58,656 bases of DNA, from the IMG/VR virus record IMGVR_UViG_3300032334_000389, positions 1 through 58,656 of that record; one strand, written 5' to 3'. The notes beneath the pieces were generated by a model. It saw only the letters and a program-made list of their open reading frames with translations, did not search any database and had not been told where the DNA came from. Each line of letters starts with the position of its first letter. Position 1 is the first letter of the stretch. A program made the position numbers and the translations under genes. This stretch comes from a virus. Below, one piece after another: positions 4,490-54,318 of this stretch.

Positions 4490-5217
4490 AATACGTCCTG
4501 TATAAAATAATTATTAATATCCTCAGTCGCGTCCTTGCTGAAGAACTTCTTGTACACCTCTATGGCTCTCATCACCTTGTCCCTGCCACCTAAGATAAAG
4601 TCTTCACTAGGCTCGAACACGCCAAGCCTGTGGCTCTTCTTACACACCACGTAAAAGACTAACGGCTTACCAAACAGTTGGCTGTAGATGTAAGCTTGGC
4701 TGTCGTAGTTATACTTTTTAGCCGACCACCTGAAGTCGTCGATGTCAGACGTGGTCTTGATGTCTATCAGGATGTCCTCGCTAACAATATCAGCCTTACC
4801 CTTGAACGGCATCCCGAAGATGTCCATCACCGCTGGCTGCTCGAACACGTTGCCCTCACGGTAGATGTTCTCGTAGAAGAAGAAGTTACCCTTCATCGTA
4901 CTTACAAGGCTGTCAAGTTCGTCCTGCTCGTTTTTTAACAACAGGATCGAAGATGATGAGTGTGACACGGCATCCTTGTAGATGTTCGTGTTCCTAGTCG
5001 AGGCCTCGACAACCTCAAAGTTCACAAGTTTCTCAGGCTCAAGCATAGCCGTGTGCAGGTACGATCCCTGAAGCATAGGAACCGTTGGCTCCTCTCTAAC
5101 CTTGAACATACGTGGGTTCTTTAACAAAGTCCCGATGTCGCTGTTGCTGATGTACTTTGATCCAAACTCACCGTAGTAGTTGGAATCGTCTCTTAGTTGT
5201 TCTATTACCTTACTCAT
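4486..5217 (-). CDS. PD-(D/E)XK exonuclease, RecE/lambda-exo-like
   Basis: A 243-aa nuclease with the motifs of the RecE-type (DUF3799-like) family: GSYLHTAML (His55), GKAD (Asp143), IDIKTT (Asp152, Lys154) and YDSQAYIY (Gln174, Tyr176). Such enzymes chew one strand from double-strand ends to give 3' single-stranded tails for the partner annealing protein, encoded immediately upstream with a one-base gap. Together with the SSB-like gene they form a Red-type recombination module. Confidence 0.85.
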   Translation of the reverse strand: MSKVIEQLRDDSNYYGEFGSKYISNSDIGTLLKNPRMFKVREEPTVPMLQGSYLHTAMLEPEKLVNFEVVEASTRNTNIYKDAVSHSSSSILLLKNEQDELDSLVSTMKGNFFFYENIYREGNVFEQPAVMDIFGMPFKGKADIVSEDILIDIKTTSDIDDFRWSAKKYNYDSQAYIYSQLFGKPLVFYVVCKKSHRLGVFEPSEDFILGGRDKVMRAIEVYKKFFSKDATEDINNYFIQDVL

Positions 5218-9636: not shown

Positions 9637-9691
9637 TTACCGTTTCGTCCTTTTAGACTCGTCAGTCGAGGCACTCACCTCGAGACAGTAA
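9637..9691 (-). ncRNA. Hammerhead ribozyme, type III, in early operon leader
   Basis: All core elements occur in order on the minus strand. Stem III 5' strand UUACUGU (9691-9685) is followed by C17 at 9684. Stem I is UCGAGG/CCUCGA with a six-base loop (9683-9666). The core CUGACGA is at 9665-9659. Stem II is GUC/GAC plus a U-G pair around AAAA (9658-9647). Core GAAA is at 9646-9643, then stem III 3' strand CGGUAA (9642-9637). G10.1-C11.1, the G12-A13-A14 run and the GUC cleavage triplet are all present. Cleavage is predicted between 9684 and 9683, removing about 120 nt of leader. Self-cleavage is inferred, not shown. Confidence 0.92.
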
Positions 9692-9712: not shown

Positions 9713-9812
9713 TGTTAGTATCGTAGCTTCGCTTTTTACACTGAGTAGCCACACCCGCAGTTATCCTCTTGTCGAGTGTCAAATTAAAACTAGTTGTTTC
9801 GTTTTGACATTG

Positions 9813-10847: not shown

Positions 10848-12431
10848 ATGAACGACTTAGTATTTGACAAGGAAGGAAGAGACAAGCTGGTAAAAGGTAT
10901 AACTACAATCAGTAAGGCCGTAAAGAGCACGTTGGGACCAAGGGGTAAGACGGTGCTAATTGAATCACAGAACCACACGAACGGCATAACCATCACCAAG
11001 GACGGTGTCACGGTTGCTAAATCAATTAACCTAAAGGATCCAGTTGAGAACCTTGCGGTTAGAATGATGAAGGAGGCCGCTGACAGGACTGCTACTAGTG
11101 CTGGTGACGGAACAACCACAGCGATCGTGCTCACTGAGGCTATGGTCACAAGGGGTAACGAGTTCATCACGGATAGGAACAACGCGACAGAGGTGCTGCG
11201 TAACGTGAACACTGTAGTGGACGGTGTGGTGAAGAGCCTAGAGAAGGTGAGTAAGAAGGTGAGTGGTAAGACGCTGAAGGACGTTGCGTCTATATCAGCT
11301 AACAACGACAGGGAGCTGGGTGCTATTATTGCTGACGCGTATAACAATGTCGGTAAGGAGGGTATCGTTACGGTTGAGAACTCGCAAACGGACAAGACCT
11401 ACAGCGAGGTGACCAACGGGATCAAGATAGACAGGGGCTACACGAGCAGACTGTTCGTGAACGATATGAAGAAGGAGGAGTGCATAATGGAGGACGTGTA
11501 CATTATGGTGACGGACCAGGAGATAAGTAACATACTGTCGATTGAGAACGTGCTGAAGCCGATCATAAATGGACAGAAGAAGTTATTGATAATTGGACCG
11601 TGTACTGGCAACGTGATAAACACGCTGGCCGCGAACGTGGCTCATAATAACTTGAAGTTCTGTAACATTCAGCCACCACAGTTTGGGTACAAGCAGCAGG
11701 AGCTGATGCAAGACATCGCGCTTGCGGTTGGGGCGAAGTACTTCAGCGAGCAGACGGGTGACGATTTGAGTCTAATCTCTATAGACCACCTTGGTAAGGC
11801 GGACAGGGTGATCGTTGGAAGGGACAGCACAGTCTTGGTTCGAAGCGAGACCTCAAACGAGGCGATTAGAGAGCGCGTTGAGCAGCTGTGGATACAGCAC
11901 AACAACTCAACGAGAAAGAACGACAGGGACGCGTTAAAAGAACGTATAGCGTCACTTACAGGTGGTGTTGGAGTTATATATGTTGGAGGAGGATCGGACG
12001 TGGAGCAGAAGGAGCGCTACGACAGGGTTGATGACGCGGTCTGCGCGGTAAGGTCGGCGCTAGAGGAGGGTATACTTCCAGGTGGAGGTGTGGCGCTGTA
12101 TAATATTGCGTCTGATATCATAGCGTACGCGGACGATAATATGGAGCACATAAGCCACGACCAGTACACCGCGATGCAGATCGTAGGATGGGCGATACAG
12201 TCACCGCTGCTGCAGATAATGGACAACGCTGGTAAGGACGGTTACGAGATGATGTCAGACGTAAACACACCAGGACACGGATACGATGTGAAGAACGAGT
12301 GCTACGGTGATATGTTCGGGATGGGGATCATAGATCCGCTGAAGGTTACGAAGAACGCGCTGAAGAACGCGGTCAGTGTAGCCACAACGATACTAAGCAC
12401 GAACGCAATCATAACCTTAACACGAGCGTAA
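10848..12431 (+). CDS. groEL: Phage GroEL-type chaperonin
   Basis: A 527-aa chaperonin aligning over its whole length with bacterial GroEL (about 545 aa). The start is LVFDKEGRDKLVKGI; residues 31-91 carry LGPRGKTV, TKDGVTVAK (Asp52) and AGDGTTT (Asp87); the second equatorial part has VDDAV (Asp396, equivalent to E. coli Asp398) and EEGILPGGGVAL. All ATPase residues are therefore kept. The Gly-Gly-Met tail is absent; the protein ends after ILSTNAIITLTRA. It presumably forms a ring that folds phage proteins such as the capsid protein, together with GroES encoded one base downstream. The order groEL then groES is the reverse of the bacterial operon. Confidence 0.96.
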   Translation: MNDLVFDKEGRDKLVKGITTISKAVKSTLGPRGKTVLIESQNHTNGITITKDGVTVAKSINLKDPVENLAVRMMKEAADRTATSAGDGTTTAIVLTEAMVTRGNEFITDRNNATEVLRNVNTVVDGVVKSLEKVSKKVSGKTLKDVASISANNDRELGAIIADAYNNVGKEGIVTVENSQTDKTYSEVTNGIKIDRGYTSRLFVNDMKKEECIMEDVYIMVTDQEISNILSIENVLKPIINGQKKLLIIGPCTGNVINTLAANVAHNNLKFCNIQPPQFGYKQQELMQDIALAVGAKYFSEQTGDDLSLISIDHLGKADRVIVGRDSTVLVRSETSNEAIRERVEQLWIQHNNSTRKNDRDALKERIASLTGGVGVIYVGGGSDVEQKERYDRVDDAVCAVRSALEEGILPGGGVALYNIASDIIAYADDNMEHISHDQYTAMQIVGWAIQSPLLQIMDNAGKDGYEMMSDVNTPGHGYDVKNECYGDMFGMGIIDPLKVTKNALKNAVSVATTILSTNAIITLTRA

Positions 12432-12432
12432 T

Positions 12433-12690
12433 ATGAAGCCACTTGGGAAATATGTGATAATAAACCAGATCGATGAGCAGGTCAAGTCTGACATCGGTCT
12501 GATAATGTCTGGGAGTGACACGTCTAAGATGCGTTACAAGAAGGCTGAGATAGTAAAGAAGGGTACAGATGTCAATTCTATAAACGATGGGGACATCGTC
12601 TACTACGACAAGAACGCTGGCTACAGTATGATGATAGGCGACAAAACCTACACAGTCATAATGGAGAGGGACGTGATCGTTGTGATTTAA
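12433..12690 (+). CDS. groES: Phage GroES-type co-chaperonin
   Basis: An 85-aa lid protein with the family layout: N-terminal strand PLGKYVIINQID, a mobile loop at about residues 16-33 with the hydrophobic GLIM that docks to GroEL (usually GIVL), AEIVKKGTD, DGDIVYYDKNAG and the closing strand ERDVIVVI. It starts one base after groEL. Encoding both partners suggests a self-sufficient phage chaperonin rather than a lid that redirects host GroEL. Confidence 0.92.
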   Translation: MKPLGKYVIINQIDEQVKSDIGLIMSGSDTSKMRYKKAEIVKKGTDVNSINDGDIVYYDKNAGYSMMIGDKTYTVIMERDVIVVI

Positions 12691-52918: not shown

Positions 52919-53383
52919 TTAACAGTTCATCTTGATTATTGATTCAAGTCTCTCGTAAACTAGGAACTCTTTATCCCTTGGAACCTTGTCAAGTAAGGCG
53001 TGTAGTTTGCTTGACAGCCTAGCCTCAAGCTTATCAATTTTTGTTGATAAAACTATATTGTCATACCATATCTTATTGGTCTCACTTATATCCTTTATCT
53101 CCAATCCTTTAGAGTACACGTTTAGAATATTAAAGTACTTGTTTCTAAACCTGTCGTCATACTTGATCCAGCTGTCAAAGTTCTTGATGTAGTGGTAAAT
53201 AGTGGCGTGGTCCTTCTTAAGTATTCTTCCTACCTTTGTGTATCCAATATTATGGTACGAGTACATAATCTTTGAGAATATCGCCCTAGCCTCTACGTGA
53301 TCTTTTTCTCTGCTCTTGTTGAATATGTCTACATTATATTCAAACTCCATAATTCTTATCAGTTCATTTATATTATTCTCCAT
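52919..53383 (-). CDS. DnaA domain IV-like DNA-binding protein, 154 aa
   Basis: Residues about 28-70 (ARAIFSKIMYSYHNIGYTKV, then GRILKKDHATIYHYIKNF) match the DnaA C-terminal helix-turn-helix, including the DHAT box at 58-61 that contacts the DnaA-box core. The AAA+ ATPase domain of DnaA is absent. It may bind an origin or compete with host DnaA. The N-terminal LIRIMEFEY resembles the small protein at 4262. It overlaps the VRR-NUC gene by 11 bases. Confidence 0.72.
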   Translation of the reverse strand: MENNINELIRIMEFEYNVDIFNKSREKDHVEARAIFSKIMYSYHNIGYTKVGRILKKDHATIYHYIKNFDSWIKYDDRFRNKYFNILNVYSKGLEIKDISETNKIWYDNIVLSTKIDKLEARLSSKLHALLDKVPRDKEFLVYERLESIIKMNC

Positions 53384-53649: not shown

Positions 53650-54318
53650 TTAACAATAAATTAAATTAGTATTATTTTTTAAATTACCATTAAGTCTATT
53701 TTTTAAAGTTGAAGGGTTTAAATTATTATATAAAGCTGCTTCTTTTGTTCCAAAATAAAAAATTCCTGTTTCTAAATTTAATATTATTTTAGAAAATTTA
53801 TTTCTTAAGTTTTGTTTTTCGCTTTCAGACATTACTTTATTACAACCTCTTTTATTACCTATAAGAGATAAAGACATTTTATTTTTTGTTTCTTTAGAAT
53901 GTTTTTTACCCATCATTGAATTAGACATTTTTTCCTTCCATTCTTTTGTGTTTTTATAACTCATATCCATTAAAGGTCTTTTTTTACCTTTTAAAGAATT
54001 TGATATTTTAATTTTACTATGTTCAGAATGACAACCTGATTTATCATTTGATTTAGCCAAACATAAATTAAGTCCATTATTCAAAACATTATAAAAATCC
54101 TGCCAATATCTTTCTCTTTCACTTAACAATTCAACATTACATTCTTCTATAATTTCAAATAAATGATTTTCTACTCCGTATTTTAAAAAAGACCTGTATA
54201 GTTTTATTTGTCTTTTACAATTTATTTTTTTATAAGTTTTAAATCTTCGATTTATATCTATACTTTTTCCTATATAAATCTTATTTGTTGGCGATGTAAT
54301 TTTGTATATTCCTATCAT
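53650..54318 (-). CDS. GIY-YIG homing endonuclease, free-standing, 222 aa
   Basis: Catalytic domain with GIYKI (3-7), YIGKS (15-19), Arg24-Arg25 and ERERYWQDFY (Glu near 69). NUMOD3-like DNA-binding repeats follow (HSEHSKIKISNSLKGKKRP, HSKETKNKMSLSLIGNKRG), and a NUMOD1-like end (ETGIFYFGTKEAALYNNLN). Base composition is visibly more AT-rich than the flanking genes, suggesting recent insertion between the 82-aa gene and VRR-NUC. It is preceded by its own promoter and a structured RNA. Confidence 0.86.
   Translation of the reverse strand: MIGIYKITSPTNKIYIGKSIDINRRFKTYKKINCKRQIKLYRSFLKYGVENHLFEIIEECNVELLSERERYWQDFYNVLNNGLNLCLAKSNDKSGCHSEHSKIKISNSLKGKKRPLMDMSYKNTKEWKEKMSNSMMGKKHSKETKNKMSLSLIGNKRGCNKVMSESEKQNLRNKFSKIILNLETGIFYFGTKEAALYNNLNPSTLKNRLNGNLKNNTNLIYC

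Follow-up and report, generated by a model that had tools for sequence, protein, structure and literature searches.

A conserved structured leader RNA abutted by a type III hammerhead ribozyme in Flavobacterium-type phages

Tandem hammerhead ribozymes on one strand, flanking genes, were described in prophages by Perreault et al. (2011; PMC3088659), who showed cleavage of the arrays in vitro and in E. coli and proposed that long phage transcripts are cut into gene- or operon-length mRNAs; for HDV-like theta ribozymes found beside phage tRNAs, a role in maturation of the tRNA was proposed (Kienbeck et al., 2024; PMC10879173). The locus described here lies in a 58,656-nucleotide stretch of viral DNA (IMG/VR record IMGVR_UViG_3300032334_000389, positions 1 to 58,656; hereafter the window). 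Like the prophage arrays, many relatives of the window carry several hammerheads on one strand, the window itself having only one. Unlike in those arrays, the series opens close to the promoter with a type III motif that follows a structured leader RNA, the later ones (in relatives only) are type I and lie exactly between stop and start codons, and the phages are of the Flavobacterium type, with cultured isolates among them. The resemblance to theta ribozymes is that a phage self-cleaving ribozyme stands at the end of a structured RNA; however, the fold is a hammerhead with no HDV-like double pseudoknot, and the leader is not a tRNA and falls into no Rfam family. A tRNA search of the window found none.

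Among cultured phages, the comparison is with Elemovirus (Flavobacterium phage vB_FspP_elemo, host BAL314), which shares an operon protein at ∼65% identity, the same kind of promoter, and a family A leader with a type III hammerhead, and adds one type I hammerhead. It differs in its terminase, which is 47% identical to that of the window; the corresponding value is ∼37% for Cellulophaga phages, and the best match in a named record was an environmental phage at 72% identity. The hammerheads are unannotated in the three Elemovirus records whose operon region was read, and in the literature searched no paper linked hammerheads to Flavobacterium phages. The joining of a structured leader to the ribozyme, the order of type III then type I, and cultured phages having this layout are new here.

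The minus strand of the window at 9691-9637 forms a complete type III hammerhead with all core bases, three stems and a GUC triplet (Table 1), and we regard the motif as genuine. The preliminary description of this DNA had placed a type III hammerhead here, which is borne out by the sequence, by the match to Rfam RF00008 and by a strict descriptor; its cleavage position agrees with the hammerhead alignment and is a predicted site. Stem I is perfectly paired as had been stated, but is 7 rather than 6 bp long. The other helices measure 4 bp (II) and 7 bp (III), with loops closing I and II and stem III open; stem II includes G10.1-C11.1 and ends in a U-G pair, and the core GAAA (9646-9643) completes the type III consensus CUGANGA ... 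GAAA. In core, triplet, open stem III, order and spacing the motif is like RF00008, from which it differs in a shorter loop II, a longer loop I, and its location in the leader of a dsDNA phage directly behind a conserved structured RNA.

Table 1. Features of the hammerhead locus in window coordinates. Read as minus-strand RNA, the motif at 9691-9637 is UUACUGU-C-UCGAGGU(GAGU)GCCUCGA-CUGACGA-GUCU(AAAA)GGAC-GAA-ACGGUAA.
Feature	Position	Strand	Basis
Putative Bacteroidota-type promoter, -33 box TTTG	9845-9842	minus	sequence; arrangement shared with relatives
-7 box TATGTTTG, 21 nt from TTTG	9820-9813	minus	sequence; predicted transcription start ∼9807
Conserved structured leader RNA, family A	9801-9691	minus	covariance model R2, covariation
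Hammerhead stem III, 5′ strand UUACUGU	9691-9685	minus	sequence, Rfam alignment, descriptor
NUH cleavage triplet GUC, between stems III and I	9686-9684	minus	sequence
Predicted cleavage site C9684 (H17 of GUC)/U9683	9684-9683	minus	from hammerhead alignment
Stem I, UCGAGGU 9683-9677 / GCCUCGA 9672-9666, 7 bp, loop GAGU	9683-9666	minus	sequence, descriptor; compensatory in relatives
Catalytic core CUGACGA	9665-9659	minus	sequence, Rfam alignment
Stem II, GUCU 9658-9655 / GGAC 9650-9647, loop AAAA	9658-9647	minus	sequence, Rfam alignment
Core GAA 9646-9644 and stem III 3′ strand ACGGUAA 9643-9637	9646-9637	minus	sequence, Rfam alignment, descriptor
First gene of leftward operon, 59 aa	9617-9438	minus	ORF list; first ATG 9617
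113-aa operon protein, query for relatives	9058-8717	minus	homologues in IMG/VR and Elemovirus

RF00008 aligned to exactly 9637-9691 with 43.3 bits (E 3.7e-8, 601 bases searched), and when this model alone was run against the whole window the E-value was 8.6e-10. The covariance-model check suggested in the preliminary description therefore gave a match, but one under the gathering score of 48.5 bits, so that a default Rfam scan shows no match; that score is a database rule and neither a chemical nor a structural feature, and type III hammerheads of relatives likewise fall under it (Elemovirus 36.3 bits, L176 45.7 bits). The strict descriptor, which comprises the core, NUH and three stems, matched the whole window once, at this site. 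It matched none of 20 mononucleotide shuffles and had two matches in 60 dinucleotide shuffles (3.5 Mb, both strands), or ∼0.03 expected per window. The hammerhead fold lies within 0.1 kcal/mol of the minimum free energy (MFE) in the isolated 55-mer, and its pairs have probabilities of 0.44-0.99 in the 207-nt leader context; in a 65-nt fragment, the MFE fold competes with the hammerhead. For a further, type I hammerhead the window offered a single candidate, a 14.6-bit match over the type III site, which was rejected.

A search of phage records with the leader DNA gave no match, and relatives were reached through a protein search with the 113-aa operon protein. Five close relatives had 80-90% identity, and three of them carry a hammerhead at the equivalent place in which stem I is rewritten from TCGAGG/CCTCGA (window) to GCAAAG/CTTTGC, paired in both, while the core and loop I are kept (GAGT, in one of them GTGT). 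With a profile built from this protein, 60 loci were recovered in IMG/VR, selected by protein homology alone and blind to RNA; the protein also led to 68 Elemovirus records. Full hammerheads were present in 37 of the 60 loci, on the operon strand in every case and never antisense. Bare-core matches near the gene had a stem II of ≥3 bp in 71/81 sense and 0/4 antisense instances, and none of the seven antisense matches anywhere in the 60 loci did. Across 23 distinct type III sequences, pairing was complete in stem I (137/137; shuffle mean 90.8, maximum 112) and stem II (92/92; shuffle 67.8) and nearly so in stem III (128/132; shuffle 99.3); because a pairing descriptor had selected this set, the bare-core count in protein-selected loci is the fairer test. 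All 23 have CUGANGA, which the descriptor demands, and a stem I hairpin of 5-8 bp; cleavage triplets among relatives are GUA, GUC or GUU, and the sequences of loop I (GAGT/GTGT/TGT) and loop II recur. Core bases are thus kept while the stems change and covary, the pattern that the preliminary description had asked of related leaders. The cultured Elemovirus phages of Flavobacterium sp. BAL314 have the type III hammerhead; in phi38:1, a distant relative, no strict hammerhead was found.

More widely, a core-plus-stem-II pattern occurred in at least 119 stretches of viral contigs, and 108 of 127 such sites were full hammerheads, often in one-strand series; phage hammerheads are therefore common. 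Since bacterial genome contigs yielded neither a confirmed relative of the 113-aa protein nor a match to the leader pattern, no prophage host can be named.

The hammerhead lies between a promoter (9845-9813) and the first ATG (9617), as had been described. Both this promoter and the transcription start near 9807 are predictions; the arrangement TTTG-N∼21-TAnnTTTG is found upstream of most type III hammerheads in relatives, mostly ∼125-290 nt away, and the frequency of TATGTTTG in the collected loci is 0.06 per kb per strand. Counted from the predicted start, ∼123 nt precede the cleavage site, in line with the earlier figure of about 120 nt of removed leader. The 59-aa gene begins 66 nt past the site and had no match in a Pfam search. 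Products of the window match phage families for terminase, portal, a Sak-like annealing protein, exonuclease, primase/helicase and GroEL; the annealing protein, exonuclease and primase/helicase make it plausible that the operon is early, and the word "early" in the preliminary description is to be read as an assignment from gene content. Divergent from the hammerhead operon are GroEL (10848-12431, plus) and a GroES-like small protein (12433-12690, plus), the latter called by sequence and by synteny with L227. Elsewhere in the window, a small protein at 52919-53383 (minus) has a weak match, just under the Pfam cut-off, to the DnaA C-terminal DNA-binding domain, and the N-terminus MIGIYKITSPTNKIYIGKS of a protein at 53650-54318 (minus) resembles, as judged by eye, a GIY-YIG homing endonuclease.

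Conserved sequence fills the interval between promoter and type III hammerhead in relatives and, on comparative evidence, this leader is a structured RNA family not described before; the preliminary description missed it, together with the type I hammerheads that lie between downstream genes of relatives. A joint MAFFT alignment of family A misplaced the second half, and a covariance model of five similar leaders (R1) was therefore built first and extended later to 11 relatives, with the window excluded (R2). In ∼1 Mb, R1 had 16 matches at E up to 1, all of them leaders of type III hammerheads and the window included, weakly; it had no match in 765 kb of other hammerhead-bearing phages. In the 11-relative alignment, 12 of 17 pairs have changed on both sides, and 97.8% of cells are paired vs. 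34-38% with partners slid. R2 located the window leader with 45.5 bits (E 8.9e-7; next best match 14.1 bits), the E-values of both models being rough as they rest on 5 and 11 sequences. The R2 match starts about six bases past the predicted transcription start and ends on the first base of stem III (9691). Rfam 15 gave no credible family match and no known aptamer for the leaders of the window and three relatives, and a search of the window leader found neither an attenuator nor an intrinsic terminator. A TGTCAAA...TTTGACA hairpin at 9809-9777 (minus) stands at the transcript start, overlapping the first part of the leader model, and similar hairpins occur in L122 and L124. A third leader type, with no evident similarity to families A and B, precedes the type III hammerhead in L155, L176, L177 and L181; GGCTGTGTATGGCAGTCTGGGTGTAGAGTCCCGCAACCATACC is present in L176 and L181, related sequence in L155 and L177, and the L176 leader had no Rfam match. 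Leader modules thus vary between phages while the hammerhead stays.

Leader and ribozyme are closely coupled, all R1 and R2 matches being directly 5′ of a type III hammerhead. When viral contigs were searched by leader pattern alone, family A was followed directly by a type III hammerhead in 6/6 contigs, five of them seen before and one new (L234, whose leader scored 110 bits with R2). Family B was found in eight contigs, five with an intact hammerhead after the leader; in L241 stem II is imperfect, in L242 a different stem-loop replaces the hammerhead, and in L243 it is replaced, directly after the leader, by an intrinsic terminator (12 bp and a U tract, 11208-11180, minus). Both families rest on few sequences, and viral contigs may be fragments. 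The terminator, seen in a single contig, suggests that the need served at this position is to give the leader RNA a 3′ end. Two close relatives of the window, L121 and L123, also have another stem-loop instead of the hammerhead and, together with L242, show that the ribozyme is replaceable. Where the hammerhead is missing (L121, L123, L242 and L243), a stem-loop ending in ACTAAC is found directly before the first operon gene, and may be another processing site or a 5′ stabiliser. In L121, the second gene is preceded by a leftover 3′ part of a hammerhead, CGACGAAACGGAAACTTTAAAAC, which looks like the trace of a gene-cassette exchange by way of the ribozyme.

Many relatives carry type I hammerheads downstream of the type III motif, fitted tightly between the stop codon of one gene and the ATG of the following one, and in all nine protein-selected loci holding both types the type III hammerhead comes first. 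Among 36 distinct type I hammerheads, examples of which are L125:3695-3758, L175:3711-3773 and 4623-4700, and L226:7407-7476, the upstream reading frame could be assigned for 35. Relative to the first core base, its stop codon falls between -17 and +11 nt; 15 of the 35 have it precisely at -3, as a UAA within stem I, or at +1, where it is the UGA of the CUGA core. The next ATG comes 12 to 22 nt past the motif, so that cistrons are separated with almost no spare bases. With the stop codon inside stem I (GGTTAA) or the core (CTGA), cleavage could be coupled to translation termination. No type I hammerhead was seen in the window or in L122 and L124, the close relatives that bear a hammerhead. In Elemovirus, a short predicted gene, probably spurious, overlaps the type I hammerhead from the other strand (L225:7378-7485, L226:7378-7485, L232:6031-6138).

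The reading we favour, at a probability of roughly 0.6, is that the ribozyme makes both the 3′ end of a small leader RNA and the 5′-OH of the early mRNA, release of the leader being the main selected role; intracellular cleavage, the existence of the leader as a free RNA and a function for it are what we infer. Transcription from the promoter at 9845-9813 would give an RNA whose first ∼123 nt fold into the conserved structure, and the hammerhead directly behind it would cut itself between 9684 and 9683 during transcription. The products would be a stand-alone leader RNA, its 3′ end (a 2′,3′-cyclic phosphate) just past the last hairpin, and an early mRNA with a 5′-OH and the 7-bp stem I hairpin at its very start; a protected 5′ end for the mRNA is a probable second role. 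In relatives, the remainder of the operon would be divided by intergenic type I hammerheads into gene-sized mRNAs, each closing with a stem III hairpin. It follows from hammerhead structure that stem I is the hairpin at the new mRNA 5′ end in the type III topology, and that in the type I topology the upstream mRNA terminates in the stem III hairpin; type III followed by type I would therefore leave a hairpin at each processed mRNA end and set the leader free. Leader release is ranked first because the leader is under a structural constraint of its own, is directly adjacent to the ribozyme, and can alternatively finish in a terminator; the L243 terminator fits, since a stand-alone RNA needs a 3′ end. 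The "upstream free RNA" suggested in the preliminary description is supported to this extent, the RNA itself being a predicted product.

The main rival, which is compatible with leader release, is that the ribozyme serves the mRNA, with the 5′-OH and terminal hairpin shielding it against 5′-end-dependent decay or a phage- or host-triggered nuclease and the leader fragment a by-product. In each of the 23 distinct type III sequences, stem I would form a hairpin at the very 5′ terminus, and in L121, L123 and L242 a different stable stem-loop occupies the equivalent place, immediately ahead of the first gene; the covarying leader upstream, its tight abutment on the hammerhead and the L243 terminator would remain unexplained, and we consider this account unlikely to be the principal one. 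That the leader is instead a cis-acting sensor which steers folding of the adjacent hammerhead, as a regulated self-cleaving switch for the early operon, is improbable. Its final helix reaches as far as the first base of stem III, where stacking or competition would be possible, and leader modules differ among phages over a constant hammerhead; but core and stems match the consensus and should cleave fast and constitutively, unrelated leader families precede the same hammerhead, and the Rfam search of the window and three relatives found no known aptamer.

The swapping of modules between phages, the 3′ remnant in L121 and the imperfect stem II of L241 would also suit a relic or mobile cassette boundary with no current function. 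This is very improbable given compensatory changes in all stems, an invariant core, and a strand and position bias in distant phages, which point to purifying selection. Least probable of all is rejoining of the cleaved ends, with the segment from type III to type I excised and circularised by RtcB ligase. RtcB joins the kind of ends that hammerheads produce, and phi38:1 encodes it (L228:19247-20650, minus), but no RtcB was found in the window, 17 IMG/VR relatives or the two Elemovirus records searched, and the window has no type I site. Spliced or circular products were sought in the prophage arrays and none were seen (Perreault et al., 2011; PMC3088659).

No copy of the leader RNA turned up anywhere but at the start of this operon, so it may work in cis, with either the mRNA or the ribozyme as its target. 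More tentatively than leader release itself, we suggest that these phages of Flavobacterium-type hosts, with at least two unrelated leader families at the equivalent operon place, may use exchangeable small early RNAs that act in trans and are matured by hammerheads, the same hammerheads cutting the operon into 5′-OH mRNAs; if this is true, host takeover or countering host defence would be examples of their role. The role of hammerheads in phages has been an open question since at least 2011, and in this locus its clear partner is a conserved structured RNA whose end coincides exactly with the start of the ribozyme. The cultured relatives make a direct test feasible with one host and one point mutation, and the locus adds to these phages a structured RNA family and a layout rule, type III first and type I between genes.
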